This document shows, one piece after another, positions 159 to 5,420 of a stretch of DNA of 5,594 bases (position 1 is its first letter; each line of letters opens with the position of its first letter). Source of the stretch: Flavobacteriales bacterium (GTDB lineage Bacteria; Bacteroidota; Bacteroidia; Flavobacteriales; UA16). The notes under the pieces were generated by a model, which did no database searches, was not told the DNA's origin, and saw only the letters and a list, made by a program, of their open reading frames with translations. The stretch is from assembly GCA_002683735.1 (NCBI GenBank), contig NYTZ01000133.1:1-5594 (forward strand), given 5' to 3'. Both the position numbers and the translations under genes were made by a program.

Positions 159-3100
159 ATGTCCAAGTGGGTCGCCAAGAAGGACGATGTGGACGCCCCA
201 GTGGTCCAGAATACAAAGTTGGAGCGGGCTGAGAGACCCGCTGGAGGAGGCGCAAGAGATGCAGCGGTTGGTGACCGGCAGCGGAATCACCTTGAGGCGA
301 GGCGGCAAGCGGATCAGGCACGGCGGCAGATACGTCTTGCGGCCCAGGAAGCACGTGGCACGGCTGGCGACGCCCGCGGCCGAAAGCAGCTTGCGGTTGG
401 GGACTCAACGCTGGGCTCGGCCCCGCCGTTGGCGCCGACGGTTGAAGCGCTGCTGACCTCCGCCCGATCTGCGCAGCTCGAGGACTGGGGGGACGACCAG
501 TACTGGGCCAACGTCACGTGGGACGGCCATGTTGGCGCCGGACGTTCTGATTGGAAGCAGGACGCCTGGAACCAGGACGAGTGGCGTCAACCCAAGGATT
601 GGATGGGCTACGCCATCGCGCCGCAGGGCGAGACTAGTTGGAAGCGTCCGGAAAGTGATGGAGGTTGGAAGGTACCTGACACTTCGGATGAATGGAGTGC
701 CGCCGAAGATTGGAACGCGAGTTGGCACGAGGGGCCTGCCGATTGGGATGAGCCCACCGAGGACCCGTGGGGAGACAATGGCGGTTCGGATTGGGACGAG
801 TTCATCACCGTGCGCGACCAGATTGTGCGCGTGGACCTCAGTGGCTTAGATCTTGGCGATGCTGACCTGAAGGCCCTCATGCGGCACCTCGATGGCTTCA
901 TGCGGCGCTACGTCGAGTCCACCCATGGGGTCTACAGCCTCAACATGGACCTCTCATGCAACTCCTACATCACCGACCTGGGTGTTGCCAACCACCTCTG
1001 CTCGTTCCTCCACCGCTGGCCGATCTGCCACAGGCTTAAGCTTTACAAGAACGCGATTGGCGACCACTCAATCAAGGCGCTCAGCAGTTGGGTGGCCGAG
1101 GGCTATGCCCATGAGTTGCACCTTTCCGACCTCTCGGGGCACCTTACAGCTGACGGGGTGTTCCACCTCTTCCGCGAGATCGCCAAGAAAGGTTGTTACC
1201 CCTACCAGAATGGCACGAGGACCAGGTGCGCGCTCTGGTTGCGCCTCGAGCATAATGGTGTCGTGGGCATTGAGGACTTGATGAAGCGAGCAAGGACGCA
1301 GCTTCCCTCACTCGCGCTCTGCGTCCTCGACCGGGCAGACCTTGCGCGCATCAGGCCGGGCACCCCGAACACCATGCCGGGCGGCAAGGAGGTGCCTGCA
1401 GTGAACCTCGTGCTCTTCAGGTTGCAGGACCGCACGCAGAAGAGGAGCCGGGTAAAGGCGCGGCCTGGGATGGCCCAGGTGGACGACGAAGGGCCAAGTG
1501 TTGCAGTTGTGGCCGAGCCTGCGGTCGCGCATGCACTTGGCGGGGACATCAAGGAGCTCTGGGAGCCGCAAGTCGAGGCGAAGAAGCCCAAGGCGGCGGC
1601 GCCACCCAAGCCAAGTGTTGCAGTTGGGGCCGCGCCCACGGCTTCGGCTGCGCCTGGCGGGGACCTCCACGAGCTCTGGGAGCCGCCGGTTGAGACGAAG
1701 AAGGCCAAGACGGCGGGACAAGCCAAGAAACTCGACGCCACGCAGCTCGTCATGGGTTGCGCGTCATACCGCTCCAATCCGCGGGCGCTGGCCAGCGGCG
1801 AGCGGGGCCCCGTCGGTGGCGGACCGGCCGGGACGGCGGCGGTGGCCGCTGCGGGCTCGCGACGGGGGCAGAGGCAGCTGGACATCGGGTCGAGCGCGGC
1901 CTTCCCCTCGCTTGGCGGGAGTGGCGACCCTTGCAGTGTGGGGGGCATGTGGGGAGCGCCCCCCACGGCTGTTGCCGCTTGGGGCTCTGCCCCTCCGTCG
2001 GTCTTCACGACCCGGGCGAGACCGGAGCCCAGGCAGGCGCCCCGACTGCCGGCCCCGCCATCCAAGGATTGGCCTGCACCTGCTCCGGTGCCCAGCGAAC
2101 GGGAGGCGGCAAACCTGCCATCCGCGACGCAGCCATTGGAGGTCCAGGCGGCCCCAGTGGTCATGTCTCCAGCGCCGCTTCCTGCTCCTGTGACAGTGAG
2201 CGTTGTCGAGGCACCAGCGCCGGAGGTGTTGCGGCCAGCATCGCCTGAGGTGGTGGGCGACTTTTCAGCGCAGCCACAGGAAGATGAGTGGCGGCCGTTA
2301 TCTTTCGCAGAAAAGAACATCTTGAAGGTCCACAAAAAATTGCGCGAGATCTCGAAGATCAAAGAGGCTCACGAGGCTGGGGCCCCGCTGGAGAAGAATC
2401 AAGTTGCCAAGGTGCAGCAGCGCCCGAAGTTGGAGCAGGAGCTCGCGGGTCTCGAGGAAAGGAGTCGCGCACAGGGTGGTCGCACATTGCAGGAGCTCGA
2501 GCGCGCAGAGCGGTGGCGCCGGGACCGAGAGGAACGGGACAAGGCCGCGGTTGCCATCCAGCGGGTCTTTCGGGGCCACACGGATCGCCTCTTCGTCCGC
2601 CTACAGACGAGGAGTGCGGCCGACGAGGTCTCCGTGCAGAAAGCCGCCCGCATTGCAGCGGCCGGGTCAGACGCAGTTATGCAGGAGCCTGAGCAGGCGA
2701 TCGCCATGGAGGCCGAGGAGCAGAATCACGAAGTGGAAGATGAAGACGAAGACGAAAATATCAACGTCACTTCGGCACCTGTTGAGAAGGTTGAGCCACC
2801 GCAGTGCGACCGCTGGTGGTACAAAACGCCGGCCGGCGACGTGCACGGTCCATTCGAGACCACCCGGATGCGGCAGTGGCACGAGAATCGGTATTTCAAA
2901 CACGAGTTGCCAGTCAAATTGGATTGGTACAAAGACTTTTACCCTTTGGGCAGCCTCTATGGACAGAATTGGGCGGACGCGTTCACAACATCTCCAGCGC
3001 ATCCGCCAGTGGAGCAGCCACTTGAAGCTGGGCTCGAAGCGCTTGTGGGGTTGCAGTCACCTGTGGTTATGCCAAGCGAGGTGCAGCAGCCACAGAGCAC

Positions 3101-5420
3101 GCAGCACAAAGCGTTGCAACAGCAACCAGTGCCGCCAAAGACCAGGGAGATGCCACAGCACACGTCTATGCAGCCATGTGTTGTTGTGGAGCAGCATCCA
3201 GACAGTAGACCAGACAGTAGATCGGATTCTCATAGGAGTCCACCAGACCAGGCTTCCGTGGCCACGCTGCAGCCGTTGTCACACGGCGAGCTTCGACTTC
3301 AGCAATCCGTTGGACCACCACGGCAGCCCCCAGTACGCCCACCCCAGCAACCCCCTGTGGGGTCGCAGCCGCCGCCCAGTGCAGGCCAGCCGCAGCAGCC
3401 GCCCACCTGTCCGCCGCAGCAGCCGCCTGTGGGTCCGCCGCAGCAGCCCCCCGCTGGCCAGCAGCGACATCTTTCCGCACCGTCGCAAGCGCACTTGGCC
3501 GCGCACACCGATACACCAACACAGGCGATAGACTTGGGGCCACAGCGGAGGGTCTCCCCGTCATCGGGGCAACCGCAGCCGCACTCGGGGCCTCCGCAGC
3601 AGCCCGCAGAGCCACCGCGGCAGCCCCCCGCACGGCCGCCCCTCCTGCCGCCCGGCACCCGCCTCGCGCCGCAGCCCGCGCCCGTCCCCGAAACGGCTGT
3701 CGCGTCGCCGGAGGGCCAGCGCCCCGTGGACGCCGAAGTGCTTCGGGAGGCCGAAGTCGTCGAGGCGCCACCGCGGTCCCGATCGCCCGCCGCAAGTGTG
3801 GCCCCGACGCCAGAGGTCTCGCCGCACATCGCGCAGATGGGGCAAGAGCCTCCAGCGCAAGCAGGAGACTCTGAGGCGTCAGCATTCTCCATGTTCCTGA
3901 AACGCGCGGGCAAGACGGCCGTTCCCGAGGCAGGGCCACCCTTACCAGTGGAACCTCAGCGGCGTTGTGAACCTCCAGGATCTGTGGCCGCGATGGCCCC
4001 AGAGCCACCACCGCCGCGGCCATCGTCGCCAGGTAGTATCCGCGAGGATGGTGAGGCCCAGCCGCCTGGCGAAGTGCAGAGCGCACTGCCATTGAGCAGC
4101 GACGCAGCACAGATGCCAACGGCCTCAGCTACAATGCAAGCGTCGGCGCTGGCACCATTGGGTTTTGGCTTGCCACCTCCAGGCACCGTGACGCGGAAGG
4201 GACCTTCCGTGGATGGCAGCCACAGCACCGCTGCCGGTAACACCGGGGAGAACAGTACTGGCGGTAGCGGTAACCGCTTCTCTTCTCTGCGGGAACCGGT
4301 GCGCGAGTCCGGCAAAGAACAAGAGGTAGTGAATGAGGAGGATGAAGGTGAGCGTGTGCATGAGGTCTCGCCACTTGAGCATCGCTTCGTTGGTCTTGTG
4401 ATCGGCAAGGCTGGGGAGACCATAAAGTCTTTCAAGAAGCAGTCGGGTGCCTCCATTGAGATTGACCAGAATTTGCCAGACGGTCTGCCCCGCGCGGTCA
4501 TTTACAAGGGTACGCGGCGGCAGGTGAATGTAGCCAGGAAGCTCGTCGAGAGCATTGTACAGCGAGCCAAGGACGATGAGAAGGCAAAGAATCAGAACAC
4601 CAGTGGAGGTGGCATGGGTATCCTGGGCCGAGGCCCAGCTGGGGAGGCAAAGGGTGGTGACGATGGACGGGAGCCTCCACCATGGCGAAGGGCGAGGGTC
4701 GAGGACGAGCTGAAGAGCAGGGCAGACGTCGGAAGCTGGAAAAAGGGGAGCGACTACGAGGCTGCGAAGTGGGGCTCGCTGACGTCGGCGGATGTGACCC
4801 TTGGAAGCATGCGGCCGGCTTGGATGAAGCCAGGTGGTGCCAAGGCCAGCGAGGATGCTGCCAAAGAGGGCTCTGCGGACGACACGGTCTTAGAGGAGCA
4901 GAAGTACAGCCGAGGGCTCCTGGTCTTCGCCAGGCATAAGATCCTTCGCAGCAAGGCCTATGAGGTGCCGTTTGAAATGATGACGATGACCACAGGCCCG
5001 CGCCCCAGGGAAGCGAAGGTGGACAAGAAGAAAGTAACACCGGAAGGTGATGTGCCAGCGCCTCGGGATGATACCACGGCTCCCAGGCTCGAACTCGCGG
5101 AGCGCTCCCCCTCGCCACCGCAGTCGGAGCGGGAGGAGGCCCCCGCCTCCGCCCTCCACGAGGCGCCCGAGTCGCGAGAGGCCCACGAGGTATGCTTGCC
5201 CAAGGTGACGTTGTACGAGAGTTTGCCTGGTGACTCCAAGGACATCTTGAAGTTGAAGAAGAAACTGCGAGAGATCCAGAAGATCGAGGAGGCCCTCTCC
5301 GGCGGCGAGAAGTTGGAGCCGAACCAGCGCGAAAAGGTCTTGAAGAAAGTTGTTTATGAGGATGAGTTGAGGCAGTTGGAGGCCATTGTGCGTCCAAACG
5401 GCAGGCCTATCGACCCATGA
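159..5420 (+). CDS. Giant multidomain putative mRNP/translation-control scaffold (Trp-rich, LRR-like, IQ, GYF, KH, eIF4E-binding motif)
   Basis: This is one intron-free frame of 1753 codons ending in TGA at 5418-5420. I chose the ATG at 159 because it is the first ATG in the window, an in-frame TAG lies upstream at 48-50, and the next in-frame Met is residue 149; its context is weak (C at -3, T at +4). Seen in order: Ala/Arg-rich N-terminus, Trp-rich segment 110-212, LRR-like domain 216-425, helical motif 718-766, IQ 800-810, GYF 884-940, Pro/Gln-rich linker about 945-1380, KH 1400-1470, YxxxxL-phi motif 1583-1589, and a second helical motif 1693-1741. No signal peptide or transmembrane segment is visible, so a cytoplasmic or nuclear location is likely. 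Family knowledge links KH to RNA binding, GYF to proline-rich partners and the YxxxxL-phi motif to eIF4E. I infer an RNA-associated regulator of translation. I do not recognise a named orthologue. The frame, modules and end are secure; the function is not. Confidence 0.9.
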   Translation: MSKWVAKKDDVDAPVVQNTKLERAERPAGGGARDAAVGDRQRNHLEARRQADQARRQIRLAAQEARGTAGDARGRKQLAVGDSTLGSAPPLAPTVEALLTSARSAQLEDWGDDQYWANVTWDGHVGAGRSDWKQDAWNQDEWRQPKDWMGYAIAPQGETSWKRPESDGGWKVPDTSDEWSAAEDWNASWHEGPADWDEPTEDPWGDNGGSDWDEFITVRDQIVRVDLSGLDLGDADLKALMRHLDGFMRRYVESTHGVYSLNMDLSCNSYITDLGVANHLCSFLHRWPICHRLKLYKNAIGDHSIKALSSWVAEGYAHELHLSDLSGHLTADGVFHLFREIAKKGCYPYQNGTRTRCALWLRLEHNGVVGIEDLMKRARTQLPSLALCVLDRADLARIRPGTPNTMPGGKEVPAVNLVLFRLQDRTQKRSRVKARPGMAQVDDEGPSVAVVAEPAVAHALGGDIKELWEPQVEAKKPKAAAPPKPSVAVGAAPTASAAPGGDLHELWEPPVETKKAKTAGQAKKLDATQLVMGCASYRSNPRALASGERGPVGGGPAGTAAVAAAGSRRGQRQLDIGSSAAFPSLGGSGDPCSVGGMWGAPPTAVAAWGSAPPSVFTTRARPEPRQAPRLPAPPSKDWPAPAPVPSEREAANLPSATQPLEVQAAPVVMSPAPLPAPVTVSVVEAPAPEVLRPASPEVVGDFSAQPQEDEWRPLSFAEKNILKVHKKLREISKIKEAHEAGAPLEKNQVAKVQQRPKLEQELAGLEERSRAQGGRTLQELERAERWRRDREERDKAAVAIQRVFRGHTDRLFVRLQTRSAADEVSVQKAARIAAAGSDAVMQEPEQAIAMEAEEQNHEVEDEDEDENINVTSAPVEKVEPPQCDRWWYKTPAGDVHGPFETTRMRQWHENRYFKHELPVKLDWYKDFYPLGSLYGQNWADAFTTSPAHPPVEQPLEAGLEALVGLQSPVVMPSEVQQPQSTQHKALQQQPVPPKTREMPQHTSMQPCVVVEQHPDSRPDSRSDSHRSPPDQASVATLQPLSHGELRLQQSVGPPRQPPVRPPQQPPVGSQPPPSAGQPQQPPTCPPQQPPVGPPQQPPAGQQRHLSAPSQAHLAAHTDTPTQAIDLGPQRRVSPSSGQPQPHSGPPQQPAEPPRQPPARPPLLPPGTRLAPQPAPVPETAVASPEGQRPVDAEVLREAEVVEAPPRSRSPAASVAPTPEVSPHIAQMGQEPPAQAGDSEASAFSMFLKRAGKTAVPEAGPPLPVEPQRRCEPPGSVAAMAPEPPPPRPSSPGSIREDGEAQPPGEVQSALPLSSDAAQMPTASATMQASALAPLGFGLPPPGTVTRKGPSVDGSHSTAAGNTGENSTGGSGNRFSSLREPVRESGKEQEVVNEEDEGERVHEVSPLEHRFVGLVIGKAGETIKSFKKQSGASIEIDQNLPDGLPRAVIYKGTRRQVNVARKLVESIVQRAKDDEKAKNQNTSGGGMGILGRGPAGEAKGGDDGREPPPWRRARVEDELKSRADVGSWKKGSDYEAAKWGSLTSADVTLGSMRPAWMKPGGAKASEDAAKEGSADDTVLEEQKYSRGLLVFARHKILRSKAYEVPFEMMTMTTGPRPREAKVDKKKVTPEGDVPAPRDDTTAPRLELAERSPSPPQSEREEAPASALHEAPESREAHEVCLPKVTLYESLPGDSKDILKLKKKLREIQKIEEALSGGEKLEPNQREKVLKKVVYEDELRQLEAIVRPNGRPIDP
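486..794 (+). other. Trp/Asp-rich segment (residues 110-212)
   Basis: Fifteen tryptophans fall in 103 residues (110, 116, 121, 132, 137, 142, 148, 161, 170, 179, 185, 189, 196, 204, 212), most preceded by Asp, Glu, Ser or Ala and set in an acidic, Gly/Asp/Pro-containing background. The spacing of 4-13 residues and lack of a hydrophobic core suggest a disordered, multivalent segment rather than a fold. It may have grown from duplication of a short Asp-Trp unit, because gattgg recurs at the DNA level. The pattern resembles tryptophan-based binding tracts such as those of GW182/TNRC6 proteins, but true Gly-Trp is rare here, so the comparison is only an analogy. Confidence 0.75.
804..1433 (+). 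other. LRR-like N-terminal domain (residues about 216-425)
   Basis: The segment has the periodic hydrophobic pattern of a leucine-rich-repeat-like fold: VDLSGLDLGDADLKALM, then LNMDLSCNSYITDLGV, then LKLYKNAIGDHSIKAL, then LHLSDLSGHLTADGVFHLF, then LWLRLEHNGV (residues 359-368). Each unit pairs a short LxL strand with an Asn/Gly turn and a helix, as in ribonuclease-inhibitor-type LRRs. The last unit follows a Cys/Tyr/Pro-containing insertion. I recall the LWLRLEHN strand recurring in dinoflagellate proteins, which supports the lineage call, but I could not search. LRR folds usually bind proteins; no ligand can be named. Confidence 0.65.
1494..1727 (+). repeat. Two-copy tandem direct repeat, 117-bp unit (39 codons)
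   Basis: Copy 1 is 1494-1610 and copy 2 is 1611-1727, directly abutting and in frame (residues 446-484 and 485-523). By hand count 93 of 117 bases match without gaps. The shared protein core is PSVAV at the start, then GGD, ELWEP, VE and KK. The conserved middle (GGDxxELWEPxVExKK) is far less diverged than the Ala/Pro flanks, which suggests that this core is the functional part, perhaps a short linear motif centred on the Trp. Confidence 0.9.
2310..2456 (+). other. Caprin-like helical motif, copy 1 (residues 718-766)
   Basis: This 49-residue, highly charged helical stretch has the pattern ILKxxKKLREIxKIxEA, a Gly-containing turn, LExNQxxKV, and LExELxxLE at the end. It aligns without gaps to residues 1693-1741 of the same protein with 26 identities (hand count). 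The pattern resembles the conserved helical region of caprin proteins (KLRxLEKK...G..L..DQ...V), which mediates oligomerisation and partner binding. That match is from memory and by eye. The downstream charged helix (about 767-798) leads straight into the IQ motif, so the two may form one long helix. Confidence 0.6.
2556..2588 (+). other. IQ motif (residues 800-810)
   Basis: Residues IQRVFRGHTDR match the full consensus IQxxxRGxxxR, with I800, Q801, R805, G806 and R810 all present. They are embedded in a basic amphipathic helix that starts near A796. IQ motifs bind calmodulin or related EF-hand light chains, often at low calcium. Such a site in an RNA-binding scaffold would allow calcium-linked control, which is inference. 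Confidence 0.75.
2703..2759 (+). other. Acidic Glu/Asp patch (residues about 849-867)
   Basis: The stretch is dominated by Glu and Asp and ends in alternating EDEDEDE (residues 860-866), encoded by repeated GAA/GAC triplets at 2736-2756. It separates the IQ helix from the GYF domain. It is probably disordered; a purine-rich triplet run like this is prone to length change. Confidence 0.7.
2808..2978 (+). other. GYF domain (residues about 884-940)
   Basis: The segment matches the GYF signature GPF-x4-M-x2-W-x3-GYF, with G897 P898 F899, M904, W907 and then R911 Y912 F913. It is preceded by the first strand W886-W887-Y888 and followed by LPVK and FYPLG, as in SMY2-type members. Two departures stand out: the defining Gly of GYF is Arg (RYF), and the SMY2-type Asp after Tyr-Lys is Thr890. 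GYF domains bind proline-rich peptides, typically PPG-phi (SMY2 type) or PPGW/PPGxR (CD2BP2 type). The core aromatic residues are kept, so binding is plausible. Confidence 0.85.
3198..3221 (+). repeat. Perfect 12-bp tandem duplication (PDSR-PDSR)
   Basis: The 12-base unit ccagacagtaga occurs twice back to back and exactly, encoding PDSR twice. A diverged third unit (SDSH) follows to about 3233. Perfect identity suggests a recent slippage event. Confidence 0.9.
3315..3458 (+). repeat. In-frame 24-bp minisatellite, six copies of an 8-residue unit (PPQQPPVG)
   Basis: Six contiguous 24-base units start at 3315, 3339, 3363, 3387, 3411 and 3435. They encode PPRQPPVR, PPQQPPVG, SQPPPSAG, QPQQPPTC, PPQQPPVG and PPQQPPAG (residues 1053-1100). 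Units 2, 5 and 6 are closest to consensus; unit 3 is the most diverged. The repeat is a polyproline-type segment that SH3, WW, EVH1 or GYF domains might bind. Copy number is likely to vary between strains. Confidence 0.88.
3591..3656 (+). repeat. Outlying degenerate copies of the 8-residue Pro/Gln repeat, ending in a PPGTR motif
   Basis: PPQQPAE, PPRQPPAR and PPLLPPG (residues 1145-1166) follow one another and are recognisable relatives of the main 8-residue array about 130 bases upstream. The middle unit differs from the first unit of the main array at only one residue. The tract ends at PPG followed by Thr-Arg, a PPGxR peptide of the kind bound by CD2BP2-type GYF domains. Confidence 0.75.
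4356..4568 (+). other. KH domain, type I (residues about 1400-1470)
   Basis: The order of elements fits a complete type I KH fold. A first strand (HEVSPLEHRFVG) leads to LVIGKAGETIKSF with the GxxG loop GKAG at 1416-1419 (bases 4404-4415). Then come the second strand ASIEID, a variable loop NLPDGLPR, the third strand AVIYKG, and the C-terminal helix RRQVNVARKLVESIV. The basic residue in the loop (K1417) and the hydrophobic groove residues are retained, so single-stranded RNA or DNA binding is expected. It is the only KH copy seen; many KH proteins carry several, so partner modules may supply affinity. Confidence 0.92.
4905..4925 (+). other. Canonical eIF4E-binding motif YxxxxL-phi (residues 1583-1589)
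   Basis: Residues Y1583 S R G L L1588 V1589 match YxxxxL-phi exactly and are followed by Phe1590 and a basic stretch (ARHKILRSK), closely resembling the eIF4G, 4E-BP and 4E-T motifs, which begin Y-x-R or Y-x-K and are followed by basic residues. The motif binds the convex back of eIF4E, competing with eIF4G or tethering a repressor to the cap. The 4EHP-type YxYxxxxL variant is absent (Gln at position -2). A seven-residue pattern can occur by chance, but its context beside KH and GYF domains raises its credibility. Confidence 0.55.
5235..5381 (+). other. Caprin-like helical motif, copy 2, at the C-terminus (residues 1693-1741)
   Basis: This is the second copy of the 49-residue helical motif, and the cleaner one: DILKLKKKLREIQKIEEAL, a GGEKLEPNQREKV turn and helix, then a Glu/Leu helix ending QLE. 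The 12 residues after it end the protein. Twenty-six of 49 positions equal copy 1 without gaps, although 926 residues separate the copies. The pair could dimerise with each other or with other proteins carrying the motif. Confidence 0.65.

Follow-up and report, generated by a model that had tools for sequence, protein, structure and literature searches.

A candidate mRNP scaffold of dinoflagellates with KH and GYF domains and two eIF2A-tail-type helical hairpins

The window, i.e., the whole stretch of 5,594 nucleotides which was analysed here, contains an open reading frame of 1753 codons which, judged by sequence comparison, is real and conserved. We suggest that its product is a dinoflagellate mRNP scaffold acting at the translation initiation step, a reading for which we see about as much reason for confidence as for doubt. 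Sequence and predicted fold back the single frame, the KH and GYF domains, the leucine-rich-repeat (LRR) fold, a duplicated helical hairpin, the relation of this hairpin to the tail of eIF2A, and the dinoflagellate relatives; the binding steps of the scaffold are all putative. The features are as follows:

159–5420, plus strand: open reading frame, 1753 amino acids in the standard code, with an MSKW start common to six relatives
471–803, plus strand: Trp-rich low-complexity stretch, residues 105–215, 15 W in 111 residues
777–1457, plus strand: ribonuclease-inhibitor-type LRR domain, residues 207–433 (predicted model)
1493–1716, plus strand: tandem repeat of 117 nt (39 codons), 1.9 copies, LWEP in each (repeat scan)
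1752–1769, plus strand: conserved short motif MGCASY, residues 532–537
1899–1916, plus strand: conserved short motif AFPSLG, residues 581–586
2277–2489, plus strand: helical hairpin copy 1, eIF2A-tail type, residues 707–777, including SRAQGGR (profile, 111.4 bits)
2556–2588, plus strand: IQ-like motif IQRVFRGHTDR, residues 800–810 (exact consensus [IVL]QxxxRGxxx[RK]; below the Pfam cut-off)
2814–2948, plus strand: GYF domain, residues 886–930 (PF02213, 5.2e-10; GIGYF2 chain 7rup, E 2e-7)
3882–3911, plus strand: conserved motif AFSMFLKRAG of the AFxxFFKRxG type, residues 1242–1251, also in P0002, P0004, P0005, and P0008
4170–4187, plus strand: short conserved motif LPPPGT, residues 1338–1343
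4377–4550, plus strand: KH type I domain, residues 1407–1464, with the GxxG loop GKAG at 4404–4415 (PF00013, 1.5e-10)
4878–5018, plus strand: conserved helix and tail, residues 1574–1620, holding the eIF4E-binding-like YSRGLLV at 4905–4925 (alignment, model)
5211–5405, plus strand: helical hairpin copy 2, eIF2A-tail type, residues 1685–1749 (profile, 93.6 bits)

The first in-frame ATG leads to the N-terminus MSKW, which is also present in P0002, P0003, P0007, P0008, P0013, and P0014; an in-frame TTG at base 96 gives a possible longer frame. The G+C content of the window is 0.64 and that of the third positions 0.71. Four long frames out of the 26 other listed ones (three on the minus and one on the plus strand) matched none of the Pfam families at E 0.1, and an Rfam scan of the window gave no family at the gathering score. 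The dinoflagellate spliced-leader sequence was not found in the window, where the best agreement is 14 of 21 positions on the plus strand and 13 on the minus strand.

Homolog searches of proteins, in which 7991, 7985, and 7985 candidates were scored within the limits of shared words and length, yielded six relatives with several blocks in common with the window (P0002, P0003, P0004, P0005, P0007, and P0008), three records with the N-terminal half only (P0012, P0013, and P0014), eleven proteins with the LRR region in common (P0015–P0025), and four KH proteins that are more distantly related (P0006, P0009, P0010, and P0011). P0005 is named as Polarella glacialis. The accession number of P0008, GEMP01000169, is of the same series as that of GEMP01063346.1, a record assigned to the parasitic dinoflagellate Hematodinium (PMC6642578), and therefore P0008 most likely originates from Hematodinium. 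Thus, among the candidates scored, the family appears to be present in one parasitic and, as P0005 indicates, in one free-living dinoflagellate. The two dinoflagellate branches concerned are far apart. A dinoflagellate host had already been considered in the preliminary description, and relatives were indeed found in dinoflagellates, namely P0005 of Polarella and P0008 of a Hematodinium-linked transcriptome set.

In P0002 (1813 aa) the LRR domain, hairpin 1, the GYF domain, the KH domain, the 4E-like segment, and hairpin 2 follow each other in the order of the window, and the IQ motif is absent. P0007 keeps this order but has no GYF domain, and P0008, a record marked as complete, keeps it but has no hairpin 2; a strict IQ motif is missing from both. 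The frame could in principle be a chimera of the assembly or of the gene model, or correspond to two genes in some species. Consistent with this, P0003, which its source marks as complete with 1022 aa, stops between the IQ region and the GYF domain; P0012, P0013, and P0014 comprise the N-terminal half alone though their contigs have 6478, 4835, and 5393 bases; P0004 starts just before hairpin 1 and has no LRR half on a contig of 6981 bases; and the gene model P0005 links a kinase with the C-terminal half, which may be a fusion or an annotation error. On the contrary, the LRR domain, hairpin 1, the KH domain, and the 4E-like segment lie in a single frame and in the same order in the window, P0002, P0007, and P0008, and P0012 and P0013 seem, though by eye only, to end in frame shifts. 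We judge that these four single-frame records outweigh the half-length ones and that two genes or a chimera are hardly credible; the single protein assumed at the outset is thus borne out, although some records hold one half. The contigs of P0012, P0013, P0014, and P0004 are long enough for more protein. The gene model of P0005 consists of a protein kinase, a sub-threshold HMG box, and the C-terminal half of the scaffold family, and contains motifs of the types AFAKFFKRxG and LPPPGTVTK with at least two occurrences each.

The two helical segments had been regarded as caprin-like motifs for self-assembly. By profile comparison they are instead a duplicated hairpin related to the eIF2A tail. A profile was built from eleven hairpin sequences, six for copy 1 and five for copy 2. 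Among 177,635 PDB sequences only the tail at the C-terminus of human eIF2A matched it significantly (E 8.8e-8), the next match having an E of 0.13. The same tail was found in the PDB sequences with the profile of copy 1 alone (E 1.4e-5), with that of copy 2 alone (E 2.6e-4; next match 0.035), and with the last 94 residues as a single query (E 4.4e-5); with the full-length protein as query the eIF2A chain appeared at E 0.047 only. Both copies are related to each other with an hhalign probability of 99.1 (E 8.9e-19). The model of the C-terminal piece, which has an overall pLDDT of 62.4 and a pTM of 0.32, predicts helices at residues 1693–1714, 1721–1728, and 1730–1744 with a block-mean pLDDT of 83–96 over residues 1690–1739; the hairpin is confident in this model and the 4E-like helix moderately so. 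Hairpin 1 is complete in all six records that reach this place (the window, P0002, P0003, P0004, P0007, and P0008) and partial in P0012, and hairpin 2 is present at five of six C-terminal ends, being missing in P0008.

Self-assembly of a caprin-like granule protein through these helices would find some basis in a caprin-1 segment, to which the hairpin profile gives 13.3 bits as compared with 10.9 bits for the best of 1000 shuffles, and in the long disordered PQ-rich linkers, which would suit condensates. The eIF2A tail, however, reaches 38.8 bits in the same direct scoring, and no caprin domain is among the five families that the Pfam scan of the whole protein lists, so that we consider this explanation very improbable. 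The caprin-like label was rejected on the scores of the eIF2A tail and the caprin-1 segment. Contact to the ribosome would fit the hairpins better than self-assembly.

The C-terminus of PYM (∼54 residues) is described as resembling eIF2A and associating with 40S subunits of HeLa cells in a study whose own experiments in Drosophila did not support a ribosome association of PYM (PMC4072592). For eIF2A, binding to 40S is reported from a formaldehyde-dependent pull-down, together with an inhibition of translation through sequestration of 40S; it is further reported that the fragment 533–585 alone does not inhibit translation, that the N-terminus joined to 504–556 or 529–556 is inhibitory, that the constructs 1–503, 1–529, and 1–556 (poorly pure) show some inhibition, and that it was impossible to assess whether the tail binds 40S by itself (PMC10570035). 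Two cryo-EM studies with PYM1 as bait yielded 40S complexes, PYM1 itself not being described in the passages concerned (PMC11217289, PMC11649897). Given these reports on PYM, eIF2A, and PYM1 baits, a contact of the eIF2A-tail-type hairpin to the ribosome is no more than plausible. Should the eIF2A/PYM tail prove to be a portable and duplicated module, this would be of value outside of dinoflagellates, too.

The KH and GYF domains called in the preliminary description stand above the Pfam cut-offs in the profile check which it had named (KH_1, 41.1 bits vs 21.5; GYF, 39.3 bits vs 25.7). The GxxG loop of the KH domain is kept in six of six aligned sequences. Of the GYF signature W-x-Y, GPF, and M..W are kept and the last element reads RYF; the closest PDB chains are GIGYF2 and GIGYF1 (E ∼2e-7). 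GYF domains of the SMY2 type are described as having an aspartate at the subtype position and no long β1–β2 loop (PMC12249416). By eye, this position is T in the window, P0004, and P0008 and D in P0002, and the spacing is equal in the four relatives. PPG[FILMVA] ligands for SMY2-type GYF domains are not found in the window protein, P0004, and P0008; PPGA occurs in P0002 and PPGM in P0007. Conservation was measured as identity per 25-residue block in an alignment of the window protein with five relatives and amounts to 0.45–0.70 in the LRR region (residues 201–375), 0.50–0.64 around hairpin 1 (701–800), 0.60–0.78 around the KH domain (1401–1475), 0.50–0.60 in the 4E-like segment (1576–1625), and 0.48–0.63 around hairpin 2 (1676–1750), with the GYF domain (876–925) at 0.37–0.43 below the other domains. 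Blocks of high identity are also found outside of the named domains, at residues 1–25 (0.57) and 576–600 (0.52). P0007 is a relative with 30 member sequences and no GYF domain; accordingly, either one lineage can do without the domain or the transcript of P0007 skips it.

The sequence YSRGLLV (residues 1583–1589) fits the pattern YX4LΦ and is its sole match in the window protein; after shuffling of the protein, 24% of the sequences still contain such a match. The strict pattern is present in three of six records (the window, P0004, and P0007), the L position being F or M in P0002, P0005, and P0008 (F in two, M in one). Invariant in all six are the Y, R, and L of YxRxL as well as K, AYE, P, M, T, and RP, and a helix is predicted around the core at residues 1573–1599 (block-mean pLDDT 64–82). 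The segment matched no chain among the PDB sequences up to E 10, so that the 4E call received no support from the profile check. The eIF4E call is the weakest of the module calls, though it lies within a conserved helix, and we give eIF4E binding by this helix about even odds. One could regard the motif as a chance occurrence within another helical motif and the protein as a PYM-like, 40S-associated KH protein without contact to eIF4E, which would not be an initiation factor and would take part, e.g., in ribosome recycling, storage, or mRNP remodelling. The shuffled sequences, the strict motif in only half of the records, the lack of a PDB match, and hairpin and KH calls that are much stronger than the 4E call argue for such a protein; the invariant core positions Y, R, and L inside a predicted helix argue against it, and we regard it as quite unlikely.

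A translational repressor like GIGYF2 or plant EXA1 would bind a cap-binding protein via the helix, recruit silencing or decay factors via the GYF domain, and select the mRNAs via the KH domain. This agrees with the match of the GYF domain to the GIGYF1/2 chains, with the report that in GIGYF2 a 4EHP-binding motif accompanies the GYF domain (PMC12249416), and with the prediction that dinoflagellate eIF4E-2 needs partners for cap binding (PMC4330643). However, the motif of GIGYF2 is described as N-terminal and of the form YXYX4LΦ, whereas that of the window protein is C-terminal and without the first Y; P0007 has no GYF domain yet keeps the 4E-like segment; and the two eIF2A-type hairpins are left unexplained. 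Repression of this kind is thus an unlikely reading, though one to be taken seriously.

The IQ motif called earlier holds insofar as it matches the consensus exactly, but it stays below the Pfam cut-off (13.3 and 17.6 bits vs 20.3). In P0003 the motif is above this cut-off (22.4 bits), and a strict IQ is present in three of the six records covering this place, the window included. The LRR-like region noticed at the same time was modelled as a ribonuclease-inhibitor-type LRR with a predicted repeating β–α solenoid fold. A Foldseek search with this model gave no match at E ≤ 0.001; on re-inspection of the structure matches LRR chains come first. A likeness to aldo-keto reductases, which make up most of the top rows (TM ∼0.27), was judged spurious beside the LRR rows. 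The shorter proteins P0015–P0025 have a related LRR domain and, in several cases, by eye a Trp-rich lead like the window protein; unlike it, none of the eleven has a significant match to the hairpin or GYF profiles or to the KH or 4E patterns. No family above the Pfam cut-off was found in the seven of them that were scanned. An RWxxHL motif is present near the C-terminus of seven of the eleven (P0015–P0019, P0021, and P0022) and is not found in the window protein. Between the LRR domain and hairpin 1 the motifs MGCASY and AFPSLG recur with one-letter variants in P0002, P0003, P0007, P0008, and P0012–P0014. The 117-nt duplication at 1493–1716 has 82% matches and doubles the LWEP motif.

We favour the initiation scaffold because the hairpins resemble the eIF2A tail, the PYM tail is reported to be 40S-associated, the GxxG loop of the KH domain is intact, and the GYF domain is similar to those of GIGYF1/2; because the modules other than the IQ motif are kept in order in P0002 and, apart from the GYF domain in P0007 and hairpin 2 in P0008, in these two relatives; and because the LRR domain, hairpin 1, the KH domain, the 4E-like segment, and hairpin 2 are highly conserved. 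In such a scaffold the KH domain would hold the mRNA and the two hairpins would contact the small ribosomal subunit, while the helix with the core YxRxL(L/F/M)(V/L/I) may be a binding site for one of the numerous eIF4E forms of dinoflagellates. Partner proteins would be recruited by the GYF and LRR domains, and in some species calmodulin may act on the scaffold through the IQ motif, the possible calcium input proposed earlier. We would expect the protein to bridge selected mRNAs to 40S, with a net effect that may be activating or repressing. Counting against the scaffold are the E of 0.047 for the eIF2A chain with the full-length query, the absence of hairpin 2 from P0008 and of the GYF domain from P0007, the lower conservation of the GYF domain, the strict 4E motif in three of six records, the 4E-like segment without PDB match, and the reports on the non-inhibitory eIF2A tail 533–585 (PMC10570035) and on Drosophila PYM without ribosome association (PMC4072592). 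The post-transcriptional or translational control proposed earlier remains the direction to which the KH and GYF domains and the helices point. As a whole, the preliminary finding is sound in outline, better founded on the hairpins and weaker on eIF4E and IQ, its observation being partly confirmed and its interpretation partly supported.

In dinoflagellates gene control is thought to be largely translational and many eIF4E forms exist (PMC6027434, PMC7139794); eIF4E clades have been described, with variable eIF4G-binding sites in clade 1 (PMC4330643), and little is reported to be known about the interactors (PMC7139794). According to a 2018 review, the dinoflagellate eIF4G sequences comprise the MIF4G part only and the eIF4E-binding region is absent, no 4E-BPs were found in dinoflagellates, neuroguidin-like sequences are other possible eIF4E partners, and missing components are expected to emerge from biochemistry (PMC6027434). 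As eIF4G is reported there without its eIF4E-binding part, the window protein matters: with a conserved RNA-binding domain, eIF2A-tail hairpins, and a 4E-like helix it is a named and testable candidate for the missing initiation parts. Since the scaffold has KH and GYF domains, a 4E-type helix, and hairpins, one may even speculate, with great reserve as we consider it improbable, that the family is the cap-to-ribosome bridge which dinoflagellates appear to lack, by another route than the N-terminal half of eIF4G.

Among the literature matches listed, no title describes a protein with KH, GYF, and LRR domains, and the terms dinoflagellate and GYF together matched a study on Chrysanthemum only. 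With eIF2A the window protein has in common a helical hairpin of ∼49 residues (552–600 of chain 8dys), which is matched by both copies and thus duplicated in the window protein; the N-terminal β-propeller family of eIF2A is absent among the five Pfam matches. PYM, compared by description, likewise has an eIF2A-like C-terminus of ∼54 residues, 40S-associated in HeLa cells (PMC4072592), and its Mago-binding N-terminal family is absent from the Pfam matches. The resemblance to caprin is a weak one of the helical segment to a caprin-1 segment, with no caprin Pfam family in the window protein. Proteins of the GIGYF1/2 and plant EXA1 type are described as combining, like the window protein, a GYF domain with a 4E-family-binding-like motif, which in GIGYF2 is N-terminal (YXYX4LΦ) and in the window protein C-terminal (residue 1583) with a different consensus; the window protein has the KH and LRR domains and the hairpins in addition. 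The MIF4G HEAT family of eIF4G is absent among the Pfam matches, and yet, if our reading of the modules holds, the window protein would make the same link as eIF4G between a cap-binding protein, RNA, and the 40S subunit.
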